The position numbers and the translations under genes are program-made. Shown piece by piece: positions 1-57,425 of a DNA stretch of 64,000 bases; positions within the stretch are counted from its first letter, which is position 1; each line of letters opens with the position of its first letter. The DNA is from Gari tellinella (lineage: Eukaryota; Mollusca; Bivalvia; Cardiida; Psammobiidae): assembly GCA_922989275.2 (NCBI GenBank), contig OV277869.1, positions 1,860,001-1,924,000 on the forward strand. The letters run 5' to 3'. A model generated the notes under the pieces. That model made no database searches and was not told where the DNA came from. It was given only the letters and a program-made list of their open reading frames with translations.

Positions 1-105
1 GCAAACAGTTTGGAGCCAGATCAGACGGCTCCTAACTGTTTGCACTGCAAATAATAGTTTTAGCGTAAGCGCGTTTATTGGGAAAGAATAACAGATTATC
101 CACTG
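1..105 (+). mobile_element. MITE A, right part (cut by window edge)
   Basis: Damaged hairpin at 1-43, then TAGCGTAAGCGCGTTTATTG and terminal repeat GGGAAAGAATAACAG...CCACTG followed by TA. Confidence 0.8.
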
Positions 106-211
106 TACATCCGAGCTAGTCTATCAGTGACAATCAACGCCGATAAATCTCGGATATCTCTACATACCGGTGATTGTTTAATGCAGAATAACATTAATGC
201 AGAAAGCTTAA

Positions 212-503
212 CCCTTTCACTCTCAATGACGTCATAAAGCGCACTCTCAATGGCGTAATAAAGCGCATTTGCAAACAGTTTTTTATCCTGATCAGACGCC
301 GCGTAACGCCGCGTCCGAACGGGATCAAAATTGTTTGCCACTTGTTTTTTGAAATAACGTCAGTTATACTGCCTTAAATCTAAACTTTGAACCGATATTG
401 CATCATCATCATCATCATCATCGGATTTGTGATTAATGTGCAGGCAACAACAATATGGCGGTGAAGGGGCAAAAACTTCACGATAAATTTGATCATGAAA
501 GGG
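212..503 (+). mobile_element. MITE D (292 bp)
   Basis: TTAA-CCCTTTCACTCTCAATG...CATGAAAGGG-TTAA. Expanded by an internal repeat of CTCTCAATGRCGT and a CATCATCATC run (398-421). Hairpin 270-331 damaged. Confidence 0.8.
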
Positions 504-587
504 TTAACCCATTTGTGCCTAGCGTCCCATAAAAGGGACATCAGCAAACAGTGAAGAGGTAAATAATTTGAGGAGTGACAGTACTAA

Positions 588-837
588 CCCTTTCCCTTAT
601 AGAAGCGACTTTTAGCGCATTCAATTTATTCATCCGCCAAAGAAAATAGTTCCATTTTATACTGTCATGAATATGGACCATAAGAAAAGGTTTCTATATC
701 CTAGCAGATAGTAACTAAAAACAGGCTGAAAGTAAAGCAGAATGCGCCCTATGGCTCATTCTGCTTTACTTTTAGCCTGCTTTAATAGGTCACATAGATC
801 TATCTTAAATACTAGAAACAGGCTATGGGTTAAAGGG
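588..837 (-). mobile_element. MITE B (250 bp)
   Basis: Ends CCCTTTCCCTTATAG / GGGTTAAAGGG; right TTAA intact, left mutated to CTAA. Hairpin 725-783 with imperfect apex. Confidence 0.8.
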
Positions 838-851
838 TTAAGAGTCCTTAA

Positions 852-1078
852 CCCCCTACTCCATATAGATACGCATTTTAACACCTTTAATCTATTCCTC
901 CACTGAAGTAAATATGTACCACTGTCCACAAGAAATAGTTTATATCCTAGCAGATGGTAGCTTAAAGAAGGCTGAAAGTAAAGCAGAATTTGTCTCAAGG
1001 CGCATTCTGCTTTACTTTAAACCTGCTTTAAATGGTTACCGGTCTTCAAAACTTAAAACAGGCTATGGAGATAAAAAG
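852..1078 (-). mobile_element. MITE B
   Basis: TTAA on both sides (848-851, 1079-1082); hairpin arms AAGGCTGAAAGTAAAGCAGAA and TTCTGCTTTACTTTAAACCTGC. Confidence 0.75.
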
Positions 1079-1082
1079 TTAA

Positions 1083-1457
1083 TATATGAGTGTAAAATGA
1101 TTATGCCCTCAAAAAGATTGATTGCTGTTGGAGAACAGACTATTTGATAAGAATACGCGAAAGTGAAGTTTTTATGCCCCCGGGGCTGGTGAAGCTCGTG
1201 TTAGAGTTCACAGGATACGGTATGATTTAGTTATGCTGTCTGGTAATTGAAGTCGGCAGCCTTCTGGCGTTTTTACTCCGGAGGCTTAAACAATCAAGGA
1301 CTTTAATTAAATGATAGTCTGTCCTTACTGACTGGAGTTAAAACGTGTGTTTGCGATCTAATTGTTTTCACTAAATCCACCTTCCAAAGTTTCTAGTTCG
1401 TCCAACTGGCCGTTTTATTTTTCAGCAGCGACTATACTTACATTTGACTAAACATAA
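1083..1457. other. downstream intron of the CUT gene, no features
   Basis: No transposon end or coding signal recognised between MITE B 852-1078 and MITE A 1460-1705. Confidence 0.5.
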
Positions 1458-1459
1458 TA

Positions 1460-1705
1460 CAGTGGAGAATCTGTTATTCTTTCCCAATAAACGCGTTTAT
1501 GCTAAAACGTTTATTTCCTCTACAAACAGTTTGGAGCCAGATCAGACGCCGGGTAACCCGGCGTCAGATCAGGCTGCGAACTGTTTGCCACCATGATAAA
1601 CATGAAATATCAGAATTGTCCAAATGTTGTTCTTTTCTACGTTTTAGTGCTTTGCGTTTGCGTACGTTTGCGTTTAAACGGGAAAGAATAACAGATTCTC
1701 TACTG
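1460..1705 (-). mobile_element. MITE A (246 bp)
   Basis: Ends CAGTGGAGAATCTG / CAGATTCTCTACTG, flanked by TA. TA duplication with a CAGT start suggests Tc1/mariner-type mobilisation. Central hairpin GCC...GGGTAACCC...; lies 240 bp from the CUT exon donor. Confidence 0.85.
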
Positions 1706-1789
1706 TATGATTAGGGGTGACACGATTGTCGACTATCGATTGAAAAATCAAACTATCGATACTATCTGTTGTAGTAATCAATAGTTGGA

Positions 1790-1911
1790 CCTTTATTGCT
1801 TTCATCATAAATCTAACTTTAAAACGATATGGCAGACAACAATATTTGAAGCAGACGACAATATGGCGGTGAAGGGGTAAAACACTCACGATAAATTTGC
1901 TCGTGAAAGGT
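1790..1911 (+). mobile_element. MITE D right-end fragment
   Basis: AAACGATATGGCAGACAACAATA...GGCGGTGAAGGGGTAAAACACTC...GTGAAAGG then TTAA (1912-1915), 30 bp from the CUT-exon donor. Confidence 0.7.
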
Positions 1912-1944
1912 TTAAACACAAGTATATATGATTTAGCTGCTTAC

Positions 1945-2203: not shown

Positions 2204-2231
2204 CTGAAGATAATTAATTTTGTTACTATAA

Positions 2232-2482: not shown

Positions 2483-2728
2483 CAGTGGAGAATCTGTTAT
2501 TCTTTCCCGTTTAAACGCAAACGTACGCAAACGCAAAGCACTAAAACGTAGAAAAGAACAACTTTTGGACAATTCTGATAATTCTTGTTTATCCTGGTGG
2601 CAAACAGTTTGGAGCCTGATCAGACGCCGGGTTACCCGGCGTCTGATCTGGCTCCAAACTGTTTGCACTACAAATAATAGTTTTAGCGTAAACGCGTTTA
2701 TTGGGAAAGAATAACAGATTCTCCACTG
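2483..2728 (+). mobile_element. MITE A (246 bp), best reference copy
   Basis: Perfect-looking 26-bp terminal repeats (CAGTGGAGAATCTGTTATTC...), TA on both sides, and central hairpin 2599-2668 with arms GCAAACAGTTTGGAGCC and GGCTCCAAACTGTTTGC around CCGGGTTACCCGG. Confidence 0.9.
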
Positions 2729-2830: not shown

Positions 2831-3171
2831 CAAGGGCTGCCATTTCTCCGGATTTTTCCCGAAATCTTCGGATTTTTCTTAATTTCTTCGGACCAACAGA
2901 TTTTTCCCGAAATCTTCGGATTTCCGCTCTTACTTTTAAAATTTGGAATTTAATGCATTTTTTTTAAACTTGGGAAACATTGATATGGGTGTCAAACAGT
3001 TAAGATCCAAATCAGACGCCGCGTAACGCGGCGTCTGATATGGATCCAAACTGTTTGCATATTTATGTTAGTGTTATAGAACCTGGCAGCGAAAGGGTTA
3101 ACGGTAAGATTCCTAAAATCGGCTTGAAAATTTTAAAATCTTAGAATTTTTTAGCATCTTATGGTAGCCCT
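2831..3171 (+). mobile_element. MITE C fragments interleaved with MITE D
   Basis: C-type left end (GGGCTGCCATTTCTCCGG) at 2834 with a partly duplicated TTCCCGAAATCTTCGG; D hairpin at 2995-3058 and D end CGAAAGGGTTAA at 3090-3101; C-type right end TTATGGTAGCCCT at 3159-3171. Confidence 0.6.
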
Positions 3172-3400
3172 TAATTCCTCATTGAAATGACTTTTCCATA
3201 CATTTACAATAGTCCAATCAATCACTCACAGAAATAATTTTCTACACATTGAAAAAGTGCTGCTTACAGGGTTTTTACGTCACTTTGTGTCATGCATTTA
3301 GCTGTCACCTTTCATTAAAGATCACCGTTCGTCCTTCTCAGCTATTCGCAGGAAATTGTATTATACTGTAACAATTTAAAATTGAATTTGACATTGAATT

Positions 3401-3656: not shown

Positions 3657-3902
3657 CAGTGGAGAATCTGTTATTCTTTCCCAATAAACGCGTTTACGCT
3701 AAAACTATTATTTGCAGTGCAAACAGTTTGGAGCCAGATCAGACGCCGGGTAACCCGGTGTCTGATCAGGCTCCAAACTATTTGCCACCAAGATAAACAT
3801 GAAATATCAGAATTGTCCAAAAGTTGTTCTTTTCTACGTTTTAGCGCTTTGCGTTTGCGTACGTTTGCGTTTAAACGGGAAAGAATAACAGATTCTCCAC
3901 TG
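3657..3902 (-). mobile_element. MITE A (246 bp)
   Basis: Complete copy with TA flanks; same length as 2483-2728. It sits between J-type MITE 3401-3650 and the CUT-gene exon. Confidence 0.9.
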
Positions 3903-5262: not shown

Positions 5263-5396
5263 ACCAACATTGCTGTTATTCAGCAGAAAGCAGCCGATTA
5301 ATGAAACTGAAAGTATTACATATGAAGCTAAAGAACCCGTATGACAAGCCTGTCATCTTTTGACAATTATGAATGTCCATGTTCTGTGCTGCTGTA

Positions 5397-5621
5397 CAGT
5401 AAAGAGGACGTTATTCTTTCTCAATAAACGTGTCTATCCTAAACTACTTTAATACATTGCAAACAGTTTGAAGCCAGATCATACGCCTGATAACCAAACT
5501 GGTTGCTACTGAGATGCAAATAAATCACAAGAATTGTCAAAAGGCTGTAATTTTTTAACATTTCATTGCGTTTTGCTTTAGTTTCGTTTTAACGGTAATA
5601 AGAATAGCGTGATTTCCACTG
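5397..5621 (-). mobile_element. MITE A, old degenerate copy
   Basis: TA-flanked CAGTAAAGAGG / TTTCCACTG ends; hairpin mostly lost (arms GCAAACAGTTTGAAGCC and CAAACTGGTTGC remain). Confidence 0.65.
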
Positions 5622-5717: not shown

Positions 5718-6245
5718 CAGTGAGGAAGGCGTCATTCTTTACTGTTTAACCCTTTCCCCAATAGAAGCGCCTTTTAGCGAATATGATTTATTCCTCCGCT
5801 GAAGAAAATAGTTCCAATTTAATCAGTCATGAATACATTTTATATGGAATATTTTCTATATTCTAACGCTGGATAGCTTAAAGTAGGCTGAAAGTAAAGT
5901 AGAATGCGCCTTAAGGCGCATTCTTCTTTACTTTCAACCTACTTTAAGTAGTCACCTATCTTCACTACTAGACATATGCTATCAGGTAAAGGGTTAAACG
6001 TAAACTTCACAGTAACGCAAACGCATTGCAATGAAATGGCGAAAATGACAACTTTCGGGAAATTGCTATAGTTCTTCCACCCGTTTAATTTGACATGAAA
6101 ACAGTTTGGAAGCCTGGTCAGACGATGAGTTACCCGGTGTCTGATCAGGCTTTCAAACGGTTGCAATGGAAACAAATCAAATAATAGTTTTAGCGTTAAC
6201 GCGTTCATTTGGAAGGAATAATATAACTTTTTTTAGGCGCCACTG
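5718..6245 (+). mobile_element. MITE A interrupted by MITE B
   Basis: Ends CAGTGAGGAAGG / GGCGCCACTG with TA. A complete B element (5750-5993) is inserted at the TTAA of the conserved GTTTAAACG box, leaving ACTGTTTAA and TTAAACGTAAAC on the two sides. Confidence 0.8.
5750..5993 (-). mobile_element. MITE B (244 bp) nested in MITE A
   Basis: CCCTTTCCCC / GGTAAAGGG ends with TTAA on both sides. Hairpin 5876-5947 of the AGTAAAG(C/T)AGAATGCGCC type with TTAA at its apex. Confidence 0.85.
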
Positions 6246-6528
6246 TATGTGAACGGAAACGTTATTCTTTCCCGTTTAACTCTTTCATTTAGGCGTTTAT
6301 CCATTCGTCTGCTTCAATATTGTTGTCTGCAACATCGTTTCAAAGTTAAATTTAAGGTAGTGACTGAAGAAATTTCAAAATGAATGTTAAACAGTTTGGA
6401 TCCTGATCAGACATTAATAATCAGGATCGTCAATAAGTTTTCATTTTCTACGTTTTATTCAAATTATTGCAATTGTGTGAGTTTCGTTTGCGTTTAAACG
6501 GGAAAGAATAACATAACGTTTCTCCACT
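6246..6528. mobile_element. degenerate MITE A with D-type material inside
   Basis: TTATTCTTTCCCGTTTAAC then changes into D-type sequence (CTCTTTCATTTAGGCG, GTCTGCTTC, hairpin arm AAACAGTTTGGATCCTGATC), and resumes as A (TTTCTACGTTTT, GTTTAAACGGGAAAG) ending TCTCCACTG. Confidence 0.6.
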
Positions 6529-6531
6529 GTA

Positions 6532-6778
6532 CAGTGGAGAATCTGTTATTCTTTCCCAATAAACGCGTTTACGCTAAAAACTATTATTTGCAGTGCAAAC
6601 AGTTTGGAGCCAGATCAGACGCCGGGTAACCCGGCGTCTGATCAGGCTCCAAACTATTTGCCACCAAGATAAACATGAAATATCAGAATTGTCCAAAAGT
6701 TGTTCTTTTCTACGTTTTAGCGCTTTGCGTTTGCGTACGTTTGCGTTTAAACAGGAAAGAATAACAGATTCTCCACTG
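6532..6778 (-). mobile_element. MITE A (247 bp)
   Basis: Complete copy that shares a single TA with the A fragment ending at 6528, so the two are tandem neighbours. Confidence 0.9.
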
Positions 6779-6892: not shown

Positions 6893-7135
6893 CTCTTTCC
6901 TCCCTGAAACTTCAAATGGACAATGCCAGTTTCCATTTAAGACAAGTCCATTTCTGACTTTTAAGGGTTGTTTTTGTCAATGTTTGGCATTGTGACAAAC
7001 AGTGAATACCCTGATCAGAGGGCTCCTTCCGGAGCCCTCTGATCTGGGTCTTCATTGTTTGCATAGGACATGTGTATTATTCACATGTACACTGTTTGAA
7101 AAGCACGTCTCTATGTGGGACTAGGGTTCAACGAG
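6893..7135 (-). mobile_element. MITE E (243 bp)
   Basis: TTAA-CTCTTTCCTCCCTG...GGGTTCAACGAG-TTAA. Hairpin about 6994-7062, arms ACAAACAGTGAATACCC and GGGTCTTCATTGTTTGC, centre GGCTCCTTCCGGAGCC. Confidence 0.85.
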
Positions 7136-11054: not shown

Positions 11055-11259
11055 CAGTAAAACCTCTCTATTACGGCCACTAAATTGTGTTAATTTGCAG
11101 GTGTTACCGACAGGTGACTGCATAAAGCAAGGTGACAGTAAAACAGAAAGCTCCTTAAGGAGCTTTCTGTTTTACTGTCTCCGTGCTTTAAGCTGTCACC
11201 TGTCTTTTATACAATTGATTAGCCTTCGTTTTAGTGGGCGTTATAGAGAGGTTTTACTG
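11055..11259 (+). mobile_element. MITE F (205 bp)
   Basis: CAGTAAAACCTCTCTATTACG / GTTATAGAGAGGTTTTACTG ends, right TA. Hairpin about 11127-11196 with apex GCTCCTTAAGGAGC. Confidence 0.85.
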
Positions 11260-12012: not shown

Positions 12013-12257
12013 CTCATTGATCCCTAGTGACGCATATATGCGTCATTTACCAAACGTTTATATGTAAAGAGTACACTTGTCCTATGCAAACAGTGAAGTC
12101 CCTGATCAGAGGGCTCCTGTAGGAGCCCTCTGATCAGGGTCTTCACTGTTTGTCATTTTGTAAAATATGATAAAAAACACAACCCTACATAGTTGAAAAT
12201 GGACCAGTATTTGTTGCAAACTGGACTTGTCCATTGGAAGTTTCAGGGGATAATGAG
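12013..12257 (+). mobile_element. MITE E (245 bp)
   Basis: TTAA-CTCATTGATCCC...GGGGATAATGAG-TTAA; hairpin about 12084-12152, centre GGCTCCTGTAGGAGCC. Confidence 0.88.
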
Positions 12258-12328: not shown

Positions 12329-12673
12329 CAACGTTCCCTCTCTACAACGATACCCAATGGGAGACAAAAAAATGTGCGTTGTTCGGAGGGGGTCGTTATA
12401 TAGGGAGGGAAATTGGCTTACATTTGCAAACAGCTTGAATCAAGATCAGACGCCGCGTATTGCGGCGTCTGATCTGGATTCAAGCTGTTTGTCACTCGTC
12501 ATTACGTTTTTTTTTCTGTAAAAATGTCCGTTATGTAATTTTGAGACAAACAGCAGACGACAAATTTAAGCAGACGGCATTGCAGCTGTGAATAGGTTGG
12601 ACATAATTGTCTTGTTTTGGGAAGAGCGGCAAGCGTCGTTGTAAGAAGGGAATCGTTGTAGCGATGGGGCGAT
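12329..12673 (+). mobile_element. MITE H (345 bp)
   Basis: CCCTCTCTACAACGATACCC start and TCGTTGTAGCGATGGGGCG end; hairpin 12425-12493, arms GCAAACAGCTTGAATC / GATTCAAGCTGTTTG around CCGCGTATTGCGG. Confidence 0.7.
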
Positions 12674-12699
12674 GTACTTCCTAGCTATAGGATACCCAT

Positions 12700-13417: not shown

Positions 13418-13644
13418 CCCCTTACCCAATAGAAGCGACTTTTAGCGTATTTAATTCATTTCTCCGCTGAAGAAAATAGTTCCAGTTTATACCCTCATGA
13501 ACAATTACCATTACAAATATTTTATATAGCCTAGCAGAGTTTAGCTTAAAGCAGGCTGAAAGTAAGGCACATTCTGCTTTACTTTCAACCTGCTTTAAGT
13601 GGTCACATATCTTCAAAACTAGAAACAGGATATGGGGTAAAGGA
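13418..13644 (-). mobile_element. MITE B
   Basis: TTAA both sides; hairpin shortened at the apex (GAAAGTAAGGCACATTCTGC), so the centre was lost. Confidence 0.8.
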
Positions 13645-13847: not shown

Positions 13848-14102
13848 CAGGGCTGCCATAAATTGACATGAAAAATCCTAAGATTTCCTAATTTGCATTT
13901 TTCAAGTGCAATTTTACAAATCATACCTTTACCCAAACGCCTGTTTCTAATTTTGTTGACGTGTGACTACTTAAAGCAGGCTGGAAGTAAAGCAGAGTGC
14001 GCCTTAAGGCGCATTCTGCTTTACTTTCAGCCTGCTTTAAGCTACCATGTACTGGGAAAACATCCTAAGATTTAGGAAAAATCCGGAAAAATGGAAGTCC
14101 TG
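13848..14102 (-). mobile_element. MITE C (255 bp)
   Basis: CAGGGCTGCCATAA...ATGGAAGTCCTG ends, direct duplication AAAATG (13842-13847 / 14103-14108). Contains the B-type hairpin (about 13970-14042). Confidence 0.85.
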
Positions 14103-14336
14103 AAAATGACCACAATATTTAAGCGAGGACAACATTTTTCGACAGGTTGCCTTCTATAACCATCTAATATCTAACCCCTACCCTTCCTCCTATTAGTGAA
14201 CGCACTCTTACTAGGTGGTTCGGGGGCATGCTCCCCCGGGAACATTTTATTCCTAGATGTTCTCTGGTGCATTTTGAGGGCGTTTTGCGCATTAAGAACA
14301 GTTAAATACTGATATTAATATTATATAAATATTAGA

Positions 14337-15602
14337 TGGCAGTTTGCGTGACATTCAAATTGTCAACCCGAGAAACAGCATGTCACCCGAGGCGTAGCCG
14401 AGGGTGACTTTCTTGTTTTCGAGGGTTGACAATTTGAATGTCACGCAAACTGACATCTAATATTTATTTTATTACACCGAGCTCATCAACCCTAGCTTTA
14501 GAATCGTCTCTTTTGTATTTTATAAAATGTGTTGTGAATATCAATTTAGCGCGGACATGTACCTAACGCGGGAAACGACGTCGCCGTCTATGACGTCACA
14601 TTGTTTATAATTATATTACAAGAAAGAAAGAAGAACGTTATGACAAGTAAATTGAAGAAACAGCGTCTTCGCATTGTCTAGGTGGCAAATATCCTCTTCC
14701 GAAATGGTGGCAAATCGTTAAGGAATGGTCAAAAGGAAGCAACTTGTACAGAAAAAAGCCAACAGTTGATTAGAAGTTACCACTCTCTAAAACGTTCCAA
14801 TGTAGCCAATAGCGAAAGTCATGTCAATGCTGACAGTACGTTTTCGGACGGAGTAAAAAAGTAATGTCCTTTAGAGTGACGTCACAAAAAGAATATCATA
14901 AAGAGTGACAGTATATTTTGAATAGATGTAAAAGACATGCAAAATGTTAACTGTAGGTCTATGGGAATTTAACATTGTAACTCAAAGCGAGGTGTAATAA
15001 ATGTAATTATTACACCTCGCTTTGAGTTACAATGTTAAATTCCAATACACATACAGTTAACATTTTGCATGTCTTTTACATCTATCCAAAATATACTGTC
15101 ACTCTTTATGATATTCTTTTTGTGACGTCACTCTAGAGGACATTACTTTTTTCCTCCGTCCGAAAACGTACTGTCAGCATTGACATGACTTTCGCTATTG
15201 GATACATTGGAACTTTTTAAAGAGTGGTAACTTATAATCAACATTTGGCATTTACTGTACAAGTTGCTTCCTTTTGTCCATTCCTTAACAATTTGCCACC
15301 ATTTCGGAAGAGGATATTTGCCACCTAGACAGTGTAAAGACGCTGTTTCTTCAATTTACTTATCATAACGTTCTTCTTTGTTTCTTGTAATATAATTATA
15401 AACAATGTGACGTCGTAAGACGGCGACGTCATTTCCCGCGTTATGTACATGTCTGCGCTAAATTGGTATTCACAACACATTTTATAAAAGACGAATAAAG
15501 CGATTCCAAAGCCAGGGTTGATAAGCTCGTTGTAATAAAATAAATATTAGATGGCAGTTTGCGTGACATTCAAATTGTCAACCCGAGAAACAGCATGTCA
15601 TC
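14337..15602. mobile_element. 1.2 kb foldback element
   Basis: Long inverted repeat, arms about 14421-15000 and 15006-15587, almost no loop (centre GTGTAATAAATGTAATTATTACAC). A smaller hairpin (14337-14468) built on GTTTGCGTGACATTCAAATT caps the left end and half of it the right end. Both ends are bordered by related direct copies (14187-14320; 15652-15790). Confidence 0.8.
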
Positions 15603-16085: not shown

Positions 16086-16860
16086 ACCGTGTTCATAACG
16101 AGCTTGAACGTGTTCATAGCGTATTAATCAGTACCCAGAACGAACTGATAACTTACAGACAACGTATACCAACGTATATACACGTATAATTGTGCAGGCG
16201 TATTTGACGCGTTCCAAACGACAACAGGGCTGCAATTTCTCCGGATTTTCCTAAATCTTCGGATTTTTTAGTACATGGTAGCTTAAAGCAGGCTGAAAGT
16301 AAAGCAGAATGCGCCTTAAGGCGCATTCTGCTTTACTTACAGCCTGCTTTAAGTAGTCGCATGTCAACAAAACTAGATACAGGCTATGGGGTAAAGGTAT
16401 ACGATTCGTAAAATCGCACTTGAAAAATTCAAATTTGGAACTCTTAGGATTTTTCATGTCAACTTATGGCAGCCCTGCGACAACAGAACTTACTGAACGC
16501 GTTTCTAACTAACAACTAGCGTATTTATTATGGCGTAGGCTATTGGCAGCACATTTAACCAACTTATAATTTATAACGTATACCATATATTAACTTATAC
16601 AAAACGTACTTACTAAATAATGGCTTATTTACAAGTAACGTGTGTGAACGATCGCATATAACTTACATACAACGTACGAAGCGTATACAATGCGTATGCG
16701 GAACGTATGAACCATACGCCGGCCATACGTTGAGATTTTTTGTGCATGCACACTTTTTTTTTGACGAACTCAGCGTACAACAACGTATGCTAGAGTATGT
16801 CAGCGTATACCAACGTGCTGTTACCATATACAAACGTACTCGTCGACGTGCACCAGCGTA
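16086..16860. repeat. ACGTATAC-rich degenerate tract
   Basis: Many variants of AACGTATAC, CAGCGTA and AACGTAC on both sides of MITE C 16225-16477; looks like an old short-period satellite. Confidence 0.55.
16225..16477 (+). mobile_element. MITE C (253 bp)
   Basis: CAGGGCTGC...GCAGCCCTG ends, direct duplication CGACAA. Inserted in an ACGTATAC-rich low-complexity tract. Confidence 0.9.
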
Positions 16861-16864
16861 TTAA

Positions 16865-17052
16865 CCCCTGTACTGTCATGACGTCGTCTGCTTTTATTTC
16901 TAAAATTAAATATTAAGTTATTTTGACTTATGAAATATTGAAATTAGTGTAAAACAGTTTGTATCCTGATCAGATGCCGCGTTACGCGCGTCTGATCAGG
17001 ATTCAAACTGTTTTCAAATTACTAGTGTACTCGGGGTAAGGCAGTGAAGGGG
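16865..17052 (-). mobile_element. MITE D variant
   Basis: TTAA-CCCCTGTACTGTCATG...CAGTGAAGGGG-TTAA; hairpin 16952-17015 with asymmetric apex. Confidence 0.8.
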
Positions 17053-17171
17053 TTAATTAGCAAATAGTATATACGTTTGGCATACGCTGGCTAAAACGTT
17101 GTAGTGTGACTGACCCATTAAGGAAAAGCAGAACATATCTCCTGCAAAACATGGACAGATTTCTCTAGTTA

Positions 17172-18967: not shown

Positions 18968-19223
18968 CAAGGCTTCCATTTCTCCGGATTTTTCCTAAAT
19001 CTTCGGAATTTTTTCTAGTACATTGTAGCTTAAAGCAGGCTGAAAGTAAAGCAGAATGTGCATTAAGGCGCGTTCTGCTTTACTTCCAGCTTGATTTAAG
19101 CAGCCACGTGTCAACAAAACTAGAAATAGGCTATGGGGTAAATGTACGATTCGTAAAATCGCACTTGAAAAATGCAAATTTGGAAAATCCGAGGATTTTT
19201 CATGTCAACTTATGGCAGCCCTG
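18968..19223 (+). mobile_element. MITE C
   Basis: Left end mutated (CAAGGCTTCCATTTCTCC); right end TTATGGCAGCCCTG intact; B-type hairpin in the middle. No target duplication recognisable. Confidence 0.8.
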
Positions 19224-22876: not shown

Positions 22877-22976
22877 TAAGACAGGTGGCTGCTTAATACA
22901 GGACACTAGTAGTGCAGAAAGTTTCTGCATTTAGCAACCACAATTCCTAAACGACTGAAGATTTGAATTATTTTAA

Positions 22977-23119
22977 CCCCTTCACTGCCATGCAAACAGT
23001 TTGGAGCCTGATCAGACGCCGGGTTACCCGGCGTCTGATCTGGCTCCAAACTGTTTGCATCGGAAATAATAGTTTGAGCGTAAACGCGTTTATTGGGAAA
23101 GAATAACGTATTATCCACT
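22977..23119 (+). mobile_element. chimeric MITE: D-type left end, A-type right half
   Basis: TTAA plus CCCCTTCACTGCCA (D-type end) runs straight into the complete A hairpin (22991-23059) and A right half ending TATTATCCACTA. The switch is at the hairpin arm TGCAAACAG that the two families share. Confidence 0.75.
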
Positions 23120-23267
23120 ATATCAATTTTAAAAATTTTTCGTCTGCTGTTATTTCTAAAAAATACAAGTTTAGGTATTTTGAATTAAGCAATATTAAAA
23201 CGAGTGTTTAACAGTTTGGATCATGATCAGTCACCACGTTACTGTCAAGTATTATAATCTGCTTTAA

Positions 23268-24474: not shown

Positions 24475-24905
24475 AATTGCAAACAGTTTCGAGCCAAATC
24501 AGACGCCGAGCAACTCAGTCTCTGATTATGCTCTATAGTGTTTGTCTCTCAGCTTTGAATAAATCGCCAATATTACTAAACCTGTAATTTCTCAACTTTA
24601 TTGCACTTGCGTTGCTGTTTAGTTCCGTTAACCCTTTCACTCTCAATGGCGTCATAAAGGGCGTTTGCAAACAGTTGGGTCCAGATCAGATGCCACGTAA
24701 CGCGGCGTCTGATCAGGACCTAAACTGTTTGACATTCTTATTGATATTTATTAAGTCAAACAATCTAAAATCTGACTTTGAAATGTGCCTTGCAGACAAC
24801 AATAACGAAGCAGCCGACAATAAAGCGGTGAATGGGTAAACATCTCCCGAATAATTTGACCATGAAGGATTTAACCAAGAAAGAATAAACATATCCCTGC
24901 TGCAC
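24475..24905 (-). mobile_element. degenerate MITE A interrupted by a D element
   Basis: A hairpin remnant (GCAAACAGTTTCGAGCC), TGCGTTGCTGTTTAGTTCCG, then D copy 24632-24870, then AAGAAAGAATAAACATATCCCTGCTG, which is the A terminus. Confidence 0.65.
24632..24870 (+). mobile_element. MITE D (239 bp) nested in MITE A
   Basis: Ends CCCTTTCACTCTCAATGG / ACCATGAAGGAT with TTAA both sides; hairpin 24665-24730 (CCGCGTAACGCGG-type centre). TTAA suggests piggyBac-type mobilisation. Confidence 0.85.
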
Positions 24906-25975: not shown

Positions 25976-26401
25976 GTCTTCCCCAAATAAAAGCTAAACC
26001 ATAATTATGTCAATTCCACAATAATTATAACAATATTCCAGATAGGGAATTTAAAATGGTATTAATATATAAACTGGCAGTCTGTTCGTTTCTACTAAAC
26101 AATTTGGAGCAACATCTGATGCCGGGCAACACGGCATTCGGCTAGGTTCGAAACTGTTCGCTATTCAGATTAAAGCCAATTGTTAACATTATCAAAAACA
26201 ATAAAAGTTCTGTATTTTATTTCACGGGCACAAATCGTTTTAATTCCCCACGTTTAAACGGAGCTAAACGCAATTTTCAAACAATAAATAAACAAAAAAT
26301 AAATAATAAAAATATTTTGAGATCTGTTTTGACCTTGACCGGAGCCCAGCTGCTCTTAATTTCTACATTTTATCGCATTTTGTTTTTATACATGTTCGTT
26401 T

Positions 26402-26645
26402 CACCCTTATACTCTCAATGATGCCTAAACGCGTGTTTACAAACAGTTTGGATCCTGATCAGACGCCGCGTGACGCAGCGTCTGATCAGGATTCAAACTG
26501 TTTGACACTCGTTTTGAAATTTCTTCAGTCATACTGCCTTATTTTTTTAAAACTTTGAAACGATATTGCAAACAACAAAATTGAAGCAGACGACATTGAA
26601 ACGGTGAAGGGGTAAAACTCTCACGAAAATTTGATCATGATAGGA
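26402..26645 (+). mobile_element. MITE D abutting a splice donor
   Basis: Hairpin 26437-26503 with CGCCGCGTGACGCAGCG centre; right end TGATCATGATAGGA then TTAA (26646-26649), 5 bp from exon 26655-26731. Left TTAA is mutated and borders an old A-type sequence (CGCATTTTGTTTTT...GTTCG). Confidence 0.75.
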
Positions 26646-26654
26646 TTAACACAC

Positions 26655-27205: not shown

Positions 27206-27460
27206 CAGGGCTGCCATTTCTCCGGATTTTTCCTAAATCTTCGGATCTTTTTCTAGAACATGGTAGCTTAAAGCAGGCTGAAAGTAAAGCAGAATGAGCC
27301 ATAGGGCGCATTCTGCTTTACTTCCAGCCTGCTTTAAGTAGTCACGTGTCAACAAAACTAGAAACAGGCTATGAGGTAAAGGTACGATTCGTAAATTCGC
27401 AATTGAAAAATGCAAATTTCAAAATCTTAGGATTTTTCATGTCAACTTATGGCAGCCCTG
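27206..27460 (+). mobile_element. MITE C (255 bp)
   Basis: CAGGGCTGCCATTTCTCC...TATGGCAGCCCTG, direct duplication CCTTAA on both sides. Confidence 0.9.
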
Positions 27461-36092: not shown

Positions 36093-36444
36093 CAGTGCTC
36101 CCTCTCTACAACGACACCCAATGGGAGACACAGCTAGTGTGCGTTGTTTGGAGGGAGTCGTTATAGGGAGTGAGAATAAGACTTGAATTACATTTGCAAA
36201 CAGCTTGATTCCAGATCAGATACCGCGTAACGCGGCGTCTGATCTGGAGTCAAGCTGTTTGACACTCGTCATTAAAATTCTACTATCAAAATGGCCAATA
36301 ATGTGTAACTTTGAGATAAAAAGCAGACGACAATTTTAAGCAGTTCAAGCGTTAGACATATATGTATTGTTTAGGGAACTGCGACAAGGGTCGTTGTAAG
36401 GAGGGAGTCGTTGTTGGGAGGGCCGTTGTAGAGAGGGCGAGTTG
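36093..36444 (+). mobile_element. MITE H (352 bp)
   Basis: CAGTGCTCCCTCTCTACAACG start, GTTGTAGAGAGGGCGAGTTG end, TA flanks; hairpin 36196-36262. Confidence 0.75.
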
Positions 36445-41190: not shown

Positions 41191-41194
41191 ATAT

Positions 41195-43864: not shown

Positions 43865-44108
43865 CCCTTTACCTCATAGCCTGTTTCTAGTTTTGAAGAC
43901 AGGTGACAACTTAAAGCAGGTTAAAAGTAAAGCAGAATGTGCCTTAAGGCACATTCTGCTTTACTTTCAGCCTGCTTTAAGCTAAAATCTGCTAGGCTAT
44001 ATAAAATATTTGTAATGGTAATTGTTCATGAGGGTATAAACTGGAACTATTTTCTTCAGCGGAGGAATAAATTAAATACGCTAAAAGTCGCTTCTATGGG
44101 GTAAAGGG
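43865..44108 (+). mobile_element. MITE B (244 bp), best reference copy
   Basis: Clean TTAA-CCCTTTACCTC...GGGGTAAAGGG-TTAA ends. Perfect hairpin about 43910-43983, apex GTGCCTTAAGGCAC. Confidence 0.9.
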
Positions 44109-44146
44109 TTAAAGCAAACGGTATAATGACAGTAAACGTAGTTTAA

Positions 44147-44332
44147 CCCGTGCACTCTCAATGACGACATAAAGCGCGTTTGCAAACTGTTTCACATTCG
44201 TGTCGAATTTTCATCAGTCATATTGCCTTAAATCTAACTTTGAAACGATATTGCAGACAGCAATATTGAAGCAGACGATACTATGGCGATGAAGGGGTAA
44301 AACTACTCTCGACAAATTTGATTATGAAAGGG
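44147..44332 (+). mobile_element. MITE D without hairpin
   Basis: TTAA both sides. The hairpin is reduced to TTTGCAAACTGTTT between the usual flanks AAAGCGCG and CACATTCGTGTCG. Confidence 0.85.
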
Positions 44333-44411
44333 TTAAAGCAAACGATAGAATTATATGGCGGAAGGGCTAGGCAGGAAAAAAGACACGTTCAATAGTCAAT
44401 AATAAGCTTAC

Positions 44412-45053
44412 CTAGATTATTTGTGGTAGATGTCGATACAGGTGTGGTTGTATTCAATCTGACTGTTACATTTGCTTTTGATGGACGCGTTGCTGTTGTG
44501 CTTGTCGTTGATGGAGATGGTGTGGGCGTAGGTGTGGTTGATTTCTGTGTTGTTAATTTTTGTGTTGTTGGTTTTTGTGTTGTTGGGTTTTGTGTGGTTG
44601 GTTTTTGTGTTGTTGATTGTGTTGTTGGTTTTGGTGTTGTTGGTTTCTGTGTTGTTGATGGTTGTGTTGTTGACTGTGTTGTTGGTGATTGTGTTATTGG
44701 TTTTGTAGTTGATTTCTGTGTTATTGGTTTCTGTGTTGTTGGTTTCTGTGTTGTTGGTTTCTGTGTTGTTGGTTTCTGTGTTGTTGGATTCTGTGTTGCT
44801 GGTTTCTGTGTTGTATGTTGTTGTGTTGTTGGTTTCTGTGTTGTTGGTGGTGGTTGTGTTGTTGGTTTCTGTGTTGCTGGTGGACGTGTTGATACTGATA
44901 TCACGTGTGACGTAGTTTTAGTGATTGGTGACGTAATCATGCCTGGACAAAGGTTGCAAGTTTTCGGGCAGACCTTTGAAGCTACCGGCGTGTTCTTGCA
45001 GATGTCGTAGGAAACCATTAGCAGTGGACATGAAGGTTCGTCCTTACAATTCA
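44412..45053 (-). CDS. ShKT domain and Thr-rich mucin linker (secreted MIB/HERC2 gene)
   Basis: Large exon of 642 bp, phase 1 to phase 1, acceptor CCGACAG and donor CTAG|GTAAGC. The first about 40 residues are a ShKT-type module with six cysteines (CKDEPSC, DICK, CPKTCNLC). The rest is a Thr/Pro/Gln-rich repeat of the TTQKP type, expected to be heavily O-glycosylated, followed by TPTPSPSTTSTTATRP and an Asn-Thr-rich tail with NVT sites. ShKT modules occur in many secreted animal proteins and do not by themselves indicate a toxin. A B-type MITE ends 31 bp upstream of the acceptor. Confidence 0.85.
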
Positions 45054-45087
45054 CTGTCGGAATGAAAAGGAAAACCACAAGCTTTAA

Positions 45088-45331
45088 CCCTTTACCCAAT
45101 AGAAGCGACTTTTAGCGCATTCAGTTTATTCATCCGCTGAAGAAAATAGTTCCAAATTATACCGTAATGAATATGTGTCATATTTAATACTTTCATTATT
45201 CTAGCAGTTAATAGCTTAAAGCAGGCTGAAAGTAAAGCAGAATGCGCCTTAGGGCGCATTCTGCTTTACTTTCAACCTGCTTTAAGTAGTCACATATCGT
45301 CAATACTAGAAACAATCTATCAGGTAAAGGG
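45088..45331 (-). mobile_element. MITE B (244 bp) upstream of the mucin exon
   Basis: TTAA both sides; hairpin 45213-45284, apex CGCCTTAGGGCG. Its left TTAA is 31 bp from the acceptor of exon 44412-45053. Confidence 0.9.
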
Positions 45332-46174: not shown

Positions 46175-46432
46175 CAGGCCTGCCATAAGTTGATAAAAAA
46201 AAAATCCTAAGATTTAATTTTTTTCAATTTTTCAAGCCCGATTTTCCTGATTATATCTTTAACCCATAGCCTGTTTCTAGTATTTAAGACGAGTAATGCT
46301 TAAAGCAGGTTGAAAGTAAAGCAGAATGCGCCTTAAGGCGCATTCTGCTTTACTTTCAGCCTGTTTTAAGCTTCCATCTGTTGAAATAAAAATCCGAAGA
46401 TTTCGGAAAAATCCGGAGAAATGGCAGCCCTG
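46175..46432 (-). mobile_element. MITE C (258 bp)
   Basis: CAGGCCTGCCATAAG...AATGGCAGCCCTG, direct duplication CGTCTT on both sides. Confidence 0.9.
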
Positions 46433-46537: not shown

Positions 46538-46771
46538 CAGTGGAGAATCTGTTATTCTTACGTCATTGGTGACGTCATACAGTGGAGAATCTGTTATTCT
46601 TTCCCAATAAACGCGTTTACGCTAAAACTATTATTTGCAGTGCAAACAGTTTGCAAACAAGATAAACATGAAATATCAGAATTGTCCAAAAGTTGTTCTT
46701 TTCTACGTTTTAGCGCTTTGCGTTTGCGTACGTTTGCGTTTAAACGGGAAAGAATAACAGATTCTCCACTG
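46538..46771 (-). mobile_element. MITE A without hairpin, with an extra end
   Basis: The 46581-46771 copy has both ends and TA flanks, but the 70-nt hairpin is reduced to GCAAACAGTTTGCAAAC. A second A terminus plus TGACGTCA spacer precedes it (46538-46580). Confidence 0.85.
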
Positions 46772-47166: not shown

Positions 47167-47409
47167 CCCTTTGAACCCTAGTCCCGCAAATAGGCGTTCT
47201 TTTCAAACAATGTACATGTGAATAATACAATTGTCCTGTGCAAACAGTGAAGACCCAGATCAGAGGGCTCCGAAAGGAGCCCTCTGATCAGGGTCTTCAC
47301 TGTTTGTCATAATGCCAAACATTGACAAAAACAACCCTTAAAAGTCAGAAATGGACTTGACTAAAATGGAAACTGGAATTGTCCATTAAAAGTTTCAGGG
47401 AGGAAAGAG
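47167..47409 (+). mobile_element. MITE E (243 bp)
   Basis: TTAA-CCCTTTGAACCCTAG...CAGGGAGGAAAGAG-TTAA; hairpin 47240-47308, centre GGCTCCGAAAGGAGCC. Confidence 0.88.
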
Positions 47410-48966: not shown

Positions 48967-49296
48967 GTCACAAATTAATCTCTCCAACTATGTTAGGTTC
49001 AGTACCGTGACATACTTACCCACGAAATTGAAATTCGTCCACGAATTAACGTACATGAAAGTAGTTTAATTGTGAGTAAGTCTATAGTTATCTATGTAGA
49101 CACTGTTAAGCTAACCATACAATGACCGTCACGGTCCCTCGTTGGGCGCCAAATGTTACAGGGGGAGAAAAAGATACAACCTAACCGGGGCTCGAACCCG
49201 GGACCTTCGGACTGCCATTCCGACGCTCTACCGACTGAGATAGCCGACTGACTACAAATTAATCTCCCCAGCTGTGTAAGGTTTAGTACCGTGACA
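48967..49296 (-). mobile_element. TRIM-like miniature LTR element with a tRNA-like LTR
   Basis: On the minus strand: LTR 49296-49154, TGTCACGGTAC...TGTAACA (143 bp); two bases; a primer-binding-like site TGGCGCCCAACGAGGGAC (49151-49134) that matches the 3' end of lysine tRNAs; about 120 bp of non-coding interior; then a second LTR start TGTCACGGTACTGAACC (49012) cut off after about 45 bp. No ORF. The polypurine tract is weak. Confidence 0.6.
49178..49249 (-). tRNA. tRNA-like sequence (anticodon GGC) inside the LTR
   Basis: The 72-nt fold has a perfect 5-bp anticodon stem around ATGGCAG (anticodon GGC, Ala-like), a perfect T arm CCGGG-TTCGAGC-CCCGG, and A box CTCAGTCGGTAGAGC. The acceptor stem pairs poorly and D-stem position 10-25 is mismatched, so a functional tRNA is unlikely. 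A Pol III promoter is plausible. Confidence 0.55.
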
Positions 49297-50830: not shown

Positions 50831-50850
50831 AATTTTATCGTCTGCTTTAA

Positions 50851-51085
50851 CCCTTTCACTCCCATAGACGTCATAAAGTGCATTTACAAACCGTTTTGAT
50901 CCTGATCAGACGCCGCGTAAGGCGGCGTCTGATCAGGATCAAAACTGTTTGCCACTTGTTTTAAAATTGCGTTATACTCCCTTAAATCTAACTTTGAAAC
51001 GATATTGCAGACAACAATATTGAAGCAGACGAAAATATAGCGGTGAAGGGATAAAAATCTCACGACAAATTTGATCATGAAAAGG
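50851..51085 (+). mobile_element. MITE D (235 bp), best reference copy
   Basis: TTAA both sides; perfect hairpin about 50888-50951 (GATCCTGATCAGACGCCGCG arm; centre CGCCGCGTAAGGCGGCG). Confidence 0.9.
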
Positions 51086-51154
51086 TTAATAAACCCCGTT
51101 TACTGTAATTATACCGCTTGCTTTAACGTGTTTCATCCTAGCTGCAGTACGTAC

Positions 51155-52278: not shown

Positions 52279-52532
52279 CAGGGCTGCCATAAGTTGACAT
52301 GAAAAATCCTAAGATTTCCAAATTTGCATTTTTCAAGTGCGATTTTACGAATCGTACCTTTACCCCCATTGCCTGTTTCTAGTTTGTTGACATGTGGCTG
52401 CTTAAAGCAGACTGGAAGTAAAGCAGAATGCGCCTTAAGGCGCATTCTGCTTTACTTTCAGCCTACTTTAAGCTACCATGTACTAGAAAAAATCCGAAGA
52501 TTCAGGAAATATCCGGAGAAATGGCAGCCCTG
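52279..52532 (-). mobile_element. MITE C near Ly6/TFP exon
   Basis: Intact ends and hairpin; 43 bp upstream of the acceptor of exon 52118-52235. Flanks AGGTGA and ATATCA do not match. Confidence 0.85.
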
Positions 52533-54313: not shown

Positions 54314-54567
54314 CAGGGCTGCCATAAGTTAACATGAAAAATCCTAAGATTTCCAAATTTGCATTTTTCAAGTGCGAATTTACGAATCGTACCTTTACCC
54401 CATAGCCTTTTCTTGTTTTGTTGACATGCGACTACTTAAAGCAGGCTGTAAATAAAGCAGAATGCGCCTTATGGCGCATTCTGCTTTACTTTCAGCCTGC
54501 TTTAAGCTACCATGAACTCGGGAAAATTCCGGAGATTTAGGAAAAATCCGGAGAAATGGCAGCCCTG
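54314..54567 (-). mobile_element. MITE C near Ly6/TFP exon
   Basis: Intact ends, direct duplication TAACTG; begins 34 bp upstream of the acceptor of exon 54198-54280. Confidence 0.9.
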
Positions 54568-54575
54568 TAACTGTC

Positions 54576-55119: not shown

Positions 55120-55200
55120 TAATATCAAGTGAAGCGCTTTTGAACGCACATATCCTGTGTGAAAAGAGTGCTATATATAAATCTGGTATTGTTATAGTTA
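55120..55200 (+). mobile_element. LINE 3' tail fragment
   Basis: GTGAAGCGCTTTTGAACGCA, then a GAGTGCTATATATAAATCTGG-like end, match the terminal 70 bp of the 59-63 kb LINE. The upstream 250 bp do not match it clearly, so this is a 5'-truncated relative. Confidence 0.65.
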
Positions 55201-55315
55201 GTTTAAACATATTTTATTTCAATTATATACATGAAATGGGGCTGGGCCACAAGTTCTACCAACTTAGAGACCTCCAGTACAGTTTTACAAATACAAATTC
55301 TTTTAGAGAGCGGTA

Positions 55316-55402
55316 TTGTGGTGTTATTATAATAATAATAAAAATGTTTATTATTAATAATAATAAAAATGATGATGATGATAATAATAATGGTAATAAC
55401 GA
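55316..55402. repeat. (AAT)n/(GAT)n microsatellite
   Basis: ATAATAATAA with GATGATGATG, directly left of MITE A 55414-55659. A similar (ATT)n run lies at 17479-17525. Confidence 0.9.
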
Positions 55403-55413
55403 AAATATATGTA

Positions 55414-55659
55414 CAGTGGAGAATCTGTTATTCTTTCCCGTTTAAACGCAAACTTACGCAAACGCAAAGCACTAAAACGTAGAAAAGAACAATTTTTTGA
55501 CAATTCTGATAATTTTTGTTTATCTTGGTGGCAAACAGTTTGGAGCCTGATCAGACGCCGGGTTACCCGGCGTCTGATCTGGCTCCAAACTGTTTGCACT
55601 GCAAATAGTAGTTTTAGCGTAAACGCGTTTATTGGGAAAGAATAACAGATTCTCCACTG
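55414..55659 (+). mobile_element. MITE A (246 bp)
   Basis: Complete, TA-flanked copy with intact hairpin 55531-55600, immediately right of an (AAT)n tract. Confidence 0.9.
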
Positions 55660-56003
55660 TAATAGTAATAATGATTAAACGATTTCATTATAGGAATCCC
55701 AACGATAATCATTAAAGGAATAACAGGTACTCCGCTATCCTCCCATAGAAACGTCCAAATACGCCACCATTCGTGCCATCAAAAGTGATTTGCGTAAGGT
55801 TTTAGAACTCCTTTCATTCGATGTTAAATAATCAAAGTTTCAACTTTAGTCGGAAATATGCACCGAGAGTATTTTCCCATACAGAAGAACATGTACATGT
55901 AAATGTAATATTGAATAATAACAATTTAAACAAACAGTGCAGACAAGTCTATACAATTTACCATTGTCCTCTTTCGTATTGTGTAAATGGGTGAATAACT
56001 TAC
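55660..56003. other. intron, no features
   Basis: Sequence between MITE A and the signal-peptide exon donor shows no recognised repeat or coding signal. Confidence 0.5.
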
Positions 56004-56045
56004 CTGTTGGTACCACGGATAGAACCAAACAACATACAATGATAT
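56004..56045 (-). CDS. signal-peptide exon (second exon) of the secreted MIB/HERC2 gene
   Basis: Exon of 42 bp between CTCTTTCAG and GTAAGT; phase 1 in and phase 1 out. It encodes IIVCCLVLSVVPT, a hydrophobic stretch that joins in frame to SSLRCLNC in the next exon, as expected for a signal-peptide core followed by a cleavage site just before the first Ly6/TFP cysteine. The exon with the initiator Met must lie at higher coordinates and was not identified. Confidence 0.65.
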
Positions 56046-56164
56046 CTGAAAGAGAATGTTTCCATGGTAACTCACGGACAAAACTCGAAAATTAGAAACT
56101 CGCAAACTCGAATTATGGTCATTACTACATTTCAAAGTTATACACATTGAATGCTAGCGACTAG

Positions 56165-56560
56165 TATTCTATATAGGATCTGTCATGAGTCGATGTTTAA
56201 GACAAGCTGGTCTCAAACGAGTCTAGAATTGAAATGTTATTAAGCGATCCTTGGCGAGCTAGAATAACATTTCTATTCTAGACGAGTTTGAGATCAACTT
56301 GTCTTAAACATCGACGAGTGACAGATTCTTTTTCTCACATAACCAACGATTTTAAGTTATTTTTAAAGCAATAGGCTTTTTTTAATCTCAGTGACGTAAT
56401 TAACGCCTCTATAAATAGTGACGTTAGAGTGACTTCATTCAAAGGGATCTCACACTTATTGGAGACAAGGATATGCGTGATCGTTGTTCGCTATAGAAAG
56501 CAGGGGTACTTATGTGAGAAAGTATGTTTCCCTGTCGTACTTTTAAAGTACGTAAGGCAA
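56165..56560 (+). repeat. R-type dispersed repeat with hairpin
   Basis: Hairpin 56170-56330 (GATCTGTCATGAGTCGATG / CATCGACGAGTGACAGATTC), then ACGTAATTAACGCCTC and a TATGTGAGAAAGT block. Confidence 0.65.
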
Positions 56561-56766
56561 AGCTGAATAATGGCGGCAACTTGTGTACCCACCATTGTCG
56601 GGTGGGTTTATTTGCCATTGTATCGGGGTGAGGGGTCTACTTTAGGGTTTTCTCGTTTGCACAGTGCCTCAAAAGAAATAAATTTATTCTAAAATACATT
56701 ACCATATCACAAATATGTTTTAGGGCATGAATTCAGTAGAAAAGACAATATGAAGGACTTGAGATT

Positions 56767-57173
56767 CAGTGAAACCCCTCTAAACCGGAACCTCTAAATA
56801 CCGGAATTCTCTCTAAACCGGACATGAACGTTGGTCCCGTTTCCAATCCTTTTTTTATTTTAATCCATTTCACAATAAATATGCATTTTTACTCTTTTGA
56901 TTTATTTATTTCCCTGAAGAAAATACTTTCATGAATATGTATCAACAGAAATATTTTCTATATTCTAGCAGACGCTATCTTAAAGCAGGTTGTGAAAGTA
57001 AAGCAGAATGTGCCTTAAGGCGCATTCTGCTTTACTTTCAACCTGCTTAAAGTTATTAGCTATCTTCCATACTAGAGACAAGCTATTGGTTAAAACCCCC
57101 CTAAACTGGAACCCCCTCTAAACCGGACATTTATGTTCTCCCCACAAGTGTCGGGTTTAGAGGGGTTTAACTG
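56767..57173 (-). mobile_element. MITE G with nested MITE B
   Basis: Same composite as 30930-31301 in opposite orientation, B copy 56864-57089 at the same TTAA; B hairpin intact (56983-57051). Confidence 0.8.
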
Positions 57174-57279
57174 TATACATTATACAACCAGGATAAAGAC
57201 AATCATGAAATAATTCCGAACTCGGCGTGTGATAAGACTATACTAAATAATGTACGCACTCTCTATTTGATTATTTACA

Positions 57280-57425
57280 TCTAAGTGGCAAAACGTTTTG
57301 AGGCTTATCAGATGCCGGCTTACCGAGCATCTGATCTGCCTCAAACCATATATGCATTAGACATCAGAAATGTTTGGCATAAGTGCATTTATTGGGAAAG
57401 AAAAAACGTCTCCACCAATGTATAT
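57280..57425 (+). mobile_element. MITE A fragment
   Basis: Diverged hairpin (GATGCCGGCTTACCGAGCATC centre region) and right end ATTTATTGGGAAAGAAAAAACG...CCAATG. Confidence 0.5.

Follow-up and report, generated by a model that had tools for sequence, protein, structure and literature searches.

A better-conserved internal hairpin in miniature transposon families of the bivalve Gari tellinella suggests a part in their multiplication

Two types of near-perfect hairpin, hairpin type 1 (H1) and hairpin type 2 (H2), were found inside several families of short transposons in a 64-kb stretch of the genome of the bivalve Gari tellinella (contig C14:1860001-1924000; hereafter the window, meaning the whole stretch that was analyzed), and in all six families compared, A to F, the hairpin was better conserved than the element arms around it. 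As far as sequence comparison goes, a better-conserved hairpin across different types of ends suggests that the hairpin helps the elements to multiply. We regard it as somewhat probable that H1 and H2 are palindromic internal modules of nonautonomous DNA transposons that spread by nested capture and were kept because intact copies amplify more, and as quite probable that the hairpin was kept by selection in amplifying lineages.

The searched genome comprised 1,597,604,326 bases in 80 contigs. The window contained 44 H1 and 25 H2 stretches (blastn, E ≤ 0.01), spread across positions 1-57425 and slightly past, with the final one at 58894-58956. Exact half-hairpins of H1 numbered 248,448 and 248,676 genome-wide, versus 17 and 15 with reversed-pattern controls, and those of H2 numbered 162,266 and 161,601, versus 0 and 3. 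Furthermore, twenty 10-kb stretches, taken regardless of content from the 5-Mb and 25-Mb positions of contigs C1-C10, contained 123 H1 and 79 H2 stretches, 16 of the latter within one tandem array. The genome-wide counts relative to the controls, together with the counts from these stretches, therefore indicate that the hairpins are neither chance nor local. The array (L022, G000:C7:25000001-25010000) had a 1277-bp period with two H2-like hairpins per period, or 16 per 10 kb. The H1 apex pattern had no match in the viral contigs searched. A wider sample of about 280 kb comprised the window and loci L001-L028; without L022, it held 216 intact hairpins, 150 with assignable flanks and 66 without.

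The carriers of H1 were family A (TA target sites, 246 bp), family D and its relatives (TTAA), family E (TTAA, 243-245 bp), and family H (TA, about 350 bp), and those of H2 were family B (TTAA, about 244 bp), family C (6-bp repeat, 253-258 bp), and family F (TA class, about 205 bp). A preliminary description of this DNA had given A to E nearly equal lengths of 235-258 bp, which fits A, B, C, and E (about 243-258 bp) and a hand-made D consensus of 247 bp, although one B copy with a deletion measured 227 bp. In flank counts over the window and the sampled loci, with copies near locus ends omitted, TA stood on both sides of 38 of 55 A copies and 6 of 12 F copies (a TA duplication and TA as part of the end being counted alike), TTAA lay at most 8 bases from both ends in 9 of 13 B, 5 of 7 E, and 4 of 17 D copies, and perfect 6-bp repeats flanked 10 of 13 C copies; the three target-site classes named in the preliminary description were thus borne out. 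In addition, a search for terminal inverted repeats around the 216 intact hairpins returned 53 with TTAA or TA ends, compared with 3 of 498 placements off hairpins. These 53 included the following: 28 H1 hairpins of the A variant, all with TA; 6 of the D variant, 5 with TTAA and 1 with TA; 4 of the E variant, all with TTAA; 11 H2 hairpins of the B variant, all with TTAA; and 4 of the F variant, all with TA. The flank counts and the terminal-repeat search therefore imply that homologous hairpins cross target-site classes. When joined flanks were searched for empty sites, the 25 matches listed of the 270 that passed the filter were the element itself or other repeats, and because these gave no empty sites, the target sites are taken from the flank counts.

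The properties of miniature inverted-repeat transposable elements (MITEs) were found in these families: full copies of A to C, E, and F measured 205-258 bp and had terminal repeats and target-site flanks, and their hairpins numbered in the hundreds of thousands genome-wide. Element ends were mostly CCCTTT-like in B and D and were CTCTTT, CTCATT, or CCCTTT in E. With TTAA at both ends and CC(C/T)T ends, B, D, and E are piggyBac-like by sequence, a likeness short of proof of the superfamily; Kolobok elements use TTAA too. Family C, with its constant 6-bp repeats and ends that resemble CAGGG ends, may be hAT-like, and A, F, and H, as TA-class elements, may be of the Tc1/mariner or pogo type. Ends of such differing kinds would imply different transposases.

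Conservation was assessed in copies found by their arms only, which avoided a choice based on the hairpin. In total, 121 copies were found, with the hairpin whole in 96, partial in 23, and lost in 2. Among the 96 copies with a whole hairpin, identity to the reference copy was higher in the hairpin than in the arms in 82, lower in 9, and tied in 5 (sign test, p = 3.5e-16); the ties, one per family except D, are presumably the reference copies themselves. The numbers of copies with a higher and a lower value in the hairpin were 41 and 2 for A, 12 and 0 for B, 8 and 4 for C, 8 and 2 for D, 5 and 0 for E, and 8 and 1 for F. Pairwise identity, tested against block-sampled arms as the null, was.874 in the hairpin and.762 in the arms for A (p =.0005),.930 and.765 for B (p =.0005),.926 and.883 for C (p =.028),.825 and.703 for D (p =.0005),.886 and.771 for E (p =.001), and.793 and.748 for F (p =.0135). 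The edges of the conserved region were sharp: at none of the 12 flanks did the conservation of the 20 columns beside the hairpin exceed the arm mean. In five families (A, B, D, E, and F), the first and last ten bases of the element were also less conserved than the hairpin; in C this did not hold, the last ten reaching.98. The G+C content of the hairpin was above that of the arms in A, B, C, and E, and CpG was not poorer except in C; composition therefore gives the hairpin no obvious protection.

The arms of H1 were 33 nucleotides (nt) long and those of H2 36 nt, with an apex of 0-4 nt, which agrees with the 33-bp stem and tiny loop described before. The hairpin was not central, contrary to what had been supposed: its center lay at 0.38-0.66 of element length in A, B, C, and E and at about 0.3 in the D consensus. 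In consensus arms of the window copies, the numbers of paired positions of 32 were as follows: D, 32; A, 31; E, 31; and H, 29 (from two copies). In sampled copies, four variants had majority arms with no mismatched pair, and in E 32 of 33 pairs were complementary (orientation within A was not fixed in this set). Arm alignments for A-D, A-E, D-E, and B-F had scores reached by 0 of 3000 shuffles, and the hairpin variants among A, D, and E and among B and F are, on this comparison, homologous. Window consensus hairpins of A and D differed on both sides of two pairs and on one side of one, and those of D and E differed on both sides of 8 of 32 pairs and on one side of one; the claim that A, D, E, and H carry one and the same hairpin type thus holds as to homology, with E as a diverged relative. 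The 7-mers CAAACAG and GATCAGA were retained in the window consensus sequences of A, D, H, and E, and the 10-nt spacer was retained in 73 of 75 exact H1 motifs. A loose layout (AAA(G)CAG, about 10 nt, CAGA, 8-9 nt, apex) is common to H1 and H2, and the E and F hairpins both contain CAGA-NN-GCTCCT. A single homologous hairpin embracing H1 and H2 was considered and rejected, as its alignment scores were not significant (best shuffle p = 0.054).

Pairing changes in the 216 hairpins comprised 1230 one-sided, 194 compensated, and 97 uncompensated two-sided cells. Relative to 300 arm permutations, compensated cells were in excess in four of five hairpin variants: 83 in D versus a permuted mean of 38.5 (maximum, 55), 48 in B versus 19.4 (maximum, 33), 18 in F versus 6.7 (maximum, 14), and 16 in E versus 8.4 (maximum, 15). 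The preliminary description had offered independent decay of the arms, with no excess of compensatory changes, as evidence against its proposal; copies did decay mostly one-sidedly, but the excess in D, E, B, and F goes the other way. On a plain reading, pairing was kept in transposing lineages, and single copies then decayed arm by arm. Self-templated repair could account for the compensation, but not for the slower divergence.

Although less stable than any other part of the element, the hairpin is conserved better than the arms are. Internal deletions of at least 8 nt in the arm-found copies touched the hairpin in 32 of 49 cases, compared with 13.6 expected by length (p = 5e-8, a value that is too small because alignment gaps were counted and five copies give more than one hairpin gap). 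Counted by copy, 26 of 121 had hairpin deletions, none of them in C. No two copies of a family had both deletion boundaries in common, the nearest being two D copies with deletions of 37-54 and 37-56. Deleted forms thus show no sign of having multiplied, an observation that would have limited power if master copies were few.

The elements of the window that bear on the families and on sharing between them were as follows.

1460..1705, minus strand: family A, with TA flanks and CAGTGGAGAATCTGTTATTC ends; H1 at 1523-1588
2483..2728, plus strand: family A, reference copy, 246 bp; H1 at 2600-2667
3657..3902, minus strand: family A; H1 at 3718-3785
6532..6778, minus strand: family A; H1 at 6594-6661
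55414..55659, plus strand: family A; H1 at 55531-55598
46580..46771, minus strand: family A, 192 bp; hairpin mostly gone, about 54 bp lost
588..837, plus strand: family B, with TTAA and a CCCTTTACCCCATAGAAGCG-like end; H2 at 715-785
5750..5993, plus strand: family B; H2 at 5877-5948
13418..13644, plus strand: family B; hairpin apex with a 17-nt deletion
43865..44108, minus strand: family B; H2 at 43910-43981
45088..45331, plus strand: family B, reference copy; H2 at 45215-45286
13848..14102, minus strand: family C, with CAGGGCTGCCA-like ends and 6-bp repeat AAAATG; H2 at 13970-14041
16225..16477, plus strand: family C, CGACAA repeat; H2 at 16282-16353; piece of B right arm at 16357-16397
18968..19223, plus strand: family C, flanks nonidentical; H2 at 19029-19100
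27206..27460, plus strand: family C, reference, CCTTAA repeat; H2 at 27267-27338; piece of B right arm at 27342-27382
46175..46432, minus strand: family C, CGTCTT repeat; H2 at 46299-46370
52279..52532, minus strand: family C, flanks nonidentical; H2 at 52401-52472
54314..54567, minus strand: family C, TAACTG repeat; H2 at 54435-54506
208..507, plus strand: family D, with TTAA and a CCCTTTCACTC end; H1 at 271-338
24628..24877, plus strand: family D, approximate limits; H1 at 24666-24731
26400..26652, plus strand: family D, approximate limits; H1 at 26440-26504
50847..51092, plus strand: family D, approximate limits; H1 at 50887-50952
44143..44339, plus strand: family D; most of the hairpin taken by a 54-nt deletion
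16861..17056, minus strand: family D2, a relative of D, with a TTAACCCCTGTACTGTC end; H1 at 16952-17016
6893..7135, minus strand: family E, TTAA; diverged H1 at 6996-7064
12013..12257, plus strand: family E; hairpin at 12084-12152
47167..47409, plus strand: family E, reference copy; hairpin at 47239-47306
11055..11259, plus strand: family F, reference, with CAGTAAAACCTCTCTATTACGG ends and TA on the right side only; diverged H2 at 11123-11192
36093..36444, plus strand: family H, with TA and a CAGTGCTCCCTCTCTACAACG end; H1 at 36195-36261; right part resembles the long arm of D and D2
12333..12690, plus strand: family H, approximate limits; H1 at 12425-12491; match to D long arm at 12495-12597
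6248..6529, minus strand: putative composite of A and D; D end directly next to TTAA (6276-6279) within an A-type element, with D and A arms meeting inside H1 (6389-6412)
2832..3172, plus strand: putative composite of C and D2; C-type ends and a D2-like body with H1 (2993-3060) in place of B and H2; TTAA at 3098-3101
22971..23122, plus strand: putative chimera of D2 and A; D2-type TTAA end followed by A hairpin (22990-23060) and right arm of A

Sharing extended beyond the hairpin in some families, whereas the preliminary description had the ends unrelated and only the hairpin in common. In family C, the hairpin is accompanied by about 14 bp and by about 40-47 bp of the B right arm. Among the best 40 of 812 masked-arm comparisons (100 shuffles each), the B right arm was found within the C right arm (z score, 10.8), the H right arm was related to the D long arm (z up to 10.1), and the element at 2832-3172 had C-type ends at z scores of 14.3 and 13.5; in this element, as read by eye, the TTAA junction lies where the B fragment of C ends. 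In the composite joined at 6389, the A and D arms each had a z score of about 20, and the other end of D was lost. Composites aside, no A-D, A-E, or D-E arm pair was among those best 40, and by eye B and F had only about a dozen bases in common adjoining the hairpin. By these likenesses, C and H appear to be composites that captured part of B or D, and the elements at 2832, 6248, and 22971 may be read as nested insertions followed by end loss or by joining at the hairpins. An A copy at about 5315-5560 of locus L012 interrupts the apex of an older A-like hairpin; a direct repeat of 10 bases (TACAGGATTA), instead of plain TA, lies on each side of this copy.

The hairpin variant was that of the terminal family in 148 of the 150 assignable hairpins, the A or D call being made on two diagnostic pairs. 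Both exceptions were A flanked; the hairpin was D-like in one and of type H2 in the other. On a tree built from 94 H1 hairpins, the family label changed 4 times, compared with a minimum of 3 and a shuffled mean of 36.8; because only 66 columns were available, 63 of the 82 inner branches of this tree were unresolved. The agreement of variant with family, together with the tree, therefore indicates that exchange is rare or old.

In the reading that we prefer, TTAA elements, piggyBac-like by their CCCTTT ends, would have inserted into TTAA sites of other MITEs; after nesting, one end would have been lost or two hairpins would have recombined, and the composite would then have been mobilized by the ends of the outer element. 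A, E, and F would be older captures with flanks past recognition. Copies with an intact hairpin would leave more descendants, whichever transposase moves them, and the hairpin would act in cis, folded in single-stranded DNA exposed by transposition-linked replication or gap repair, raising net copy number. Because the differing ends imply different transposases, the selected common part would act through a shared process of the host (replication, repair, or RNA processing) or through an accessory protein. A paired single strand is favored over a double-stranded binding site because the pairs that differ between families mostly stay complementary, and an effect on amplification is favored over one on insertion survival because single copies are not kept paired. 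If selection is granted, action at a DNA step is possible, with the balance slightly on the side of doubt. More tentative is the full proposal that a transposase-independent hairpin, with its motifs, spacing, and pairing, boosts unrelated cut-and-paste MITEs in cis via host replication, repair, or RNA machinery and was repeatedly captured by new families through nesting, up to its present hundreds of thousands of occurrences in this one genome.

Several observations weigh against this reading. Family A had no excess of compensated cells (29 versus a permuted mean of 25.9; maximum, 40) and had one standing mismatched pair among its oriented window copies, so that the earlier idea of a hairpin kept independently of the ends stood as regards conservation over the arms, in six of six families, but not as regards compensation in A. 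The conservation effects in C and F were weak, and in 4 of 13 C copies the hairpin was less conserved than the arms. In four families, conservation of the second ten bases of the left end was above that of the hairpin (C,.97; D,.84; E,.92; and F,.87), which may fit terminal binding sites. Loci L001-L008, included in the sample, were chosen through the H1 motif, a small bias favoring the conservation result, and the significance of the deletion excess is, as noted, overstated. GC-rich apices (GCCGGGTTACCCGGC) would be expected to extrude poorly from double-stranded DNA, making a cruciform in resting DNA unlikely. Finally, amplification from a few master copies would hide deleted forms even without selection.

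We think it unlikely that the hairpin works as RNA, folding first in a transcript and joining the terminal repeats so that the element is recognized for excision, editing, or small-RNA processing and its insertions, being less harmful, survive. In its favor, the predicted RNA folds of one A element (-129.5 kcal/mol; z score versus shuffles, -17.3) and one B element (-98.8 kcal/mol; z score, -12.8) form the terminal-repeat stem and the hairpin together. Selection after insertion should keep pairing in each copy, yet copies decay mostly one-sidedly. Palindromic MITE sequence can be long enough for a microRNA (miRNA)-like hairpin, as in Made1/miR-548 and in plant MITE-derived miRNAs. Every miRNA match listed by Rfam for the window fell below its gathering score, which leaves the earlier suggestion of an miRNA precursor unsupported. 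In Made1/miR-548 the element itself or its terminal repeats form the hairpin, which here is a separate internal module; in foldback elements the long inverted repeats are the ends, which here stand apart from the hairpin inside.

The retention of both 7-mers in A, D, H, and E and of the 10-nt spacing would suit a palindrome that serves as a double-stranded array of paired sites (CAAACAG, GATCAGA, and their inverted copies) for a host protein aiding synapsis or accessibility. Such an array does not need complementarity, yet 8 of 9 differing pairs between D and E and 2 of 3 between D and A stay complementary, and we hold this account to be rather doubtful. Improbable, in our judgment, is an origin in mutational processes alone, in which one arm templates the repair of the other and conversion among the many hairpins keeps them alike. 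Palindromes can provoke arm-templated repair, and the hairpin is a deletion hotspot, both of which speak for such processes; unbiased correction of arms, however, would keep pairing and should not produce the slowed divergence between copies that is observed, conversion should leave a gradient in flanks that were in fact sharp edged, the family variants were not homogenized, and changes in single copies were mostly one-sided. Continuing movement of the hairpin between MITE families as freely exchangeable cargo, the proposal of the preliminary description, could call on homologous hairpins in TA, TTAA, and 6-bp families and on the three composites or chimeras of the window, but it is highly improbable and was rejected as an ongoing process in the 280-kb sample, where hairpins clustered by terminal family, the outcome named beforehand as contrary to it, and the tree was one change above its minimum.

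The nearest case is that of the CMITEs of Acropora corals, described as short MITEs with TTAA duplications whose piggyBac-like ends differ but have a CC(C/T)T motif; an internal stretch of about 75 nt is common to the families, and its conservation between families exceeds that of the terminal repeats (Wang et al. 2010, PMC2872659). They occur in tandem arrays, a composite, CMITE-IN, arose by insertion of one element into a target, and the authors suggest a role in transposition (PMC2872659). An internal region more conserved than terminal repeats and common to families with different ends was found here as well, with C excepted within families. CMITEs are about 100 bp and all TTAA, whereas TA and 6-bp families also occur here; the available portions of that text contain no mention of hairpins or palindromes, whereas near-perfect palindromes with compensated changes were found here; and about 1600 copies were estimated in one coral (PMC2872659), versus hundreds of thousands of hairpins. 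The 60-nt CMITE core had no significant match in the Gari sequences (best E, 0.42) and folds into short weak stems only. We rate the two as the same kind of phenomenon, to which the present families add more than one target-site class, palindromes that are nearly perfect, compensated changes, and much higher numbers. In rice, an internal sequence of the Stowaway MITE Ost35 was reported to enhance transposition significantly (PMC3660474); that effect was demonstrated by assay, for Stowaway only, and in the portion of the text available the word hairpin is absent, whereas the role proposed here is inferred. A broad study of bivalve repeats left MITEs unclassified (PMC10294476). None of the papers listed in the literature searches appeared to describe these hairpins, and the hairpin sequence strings were not found in print in the PMC literature.

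Other features of the window included the following. A satellite array of 100-bp units extends from 31204 to about 34600, many of its units matching F-type terminal sequence, and a CAGTGAAACCCCTCTAAACCGG end begins at 30930; ends of a TA-class MITE are a possible source of the satellite. A third palindrome family has two copies, at 14320-14472 and 41193-41294, with arms of about 50 bp (ATTATATAAATATTAGATG...), and at 14754-15253 lies a near-perfect palindrome whose 247-bp arms are 95% complementary and separated by 6 nt. Open frames of at least 150 amino acids numbered only 8. A long interspersed nuclear element frame of 1093 amino acids with endonuclease and reverse transcriptase domains is open at 59183-62464, and a repetitive open frame at 44389-45099 had a weak extensin-like Pfam match under the curated cutoff. 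A tRNA-like match above the Rfam gathering score at 49185-49242, where ARAGORN made no call, is possibly the head of a short interspersed nuclear element.

How gene-less MITEs reach huge numbers using borrowed cut-and-paste enzymes is an old open question. A hairpin better conserved across differing transposase classes points to a shared host-dependent step, testable by mini-element assays; should the hairpin prove without effect in such assays, caution would be due in reading conservation as function in repeats. Nested capture would offer a concrete way for new MITE families to form already equipped with internal parts.

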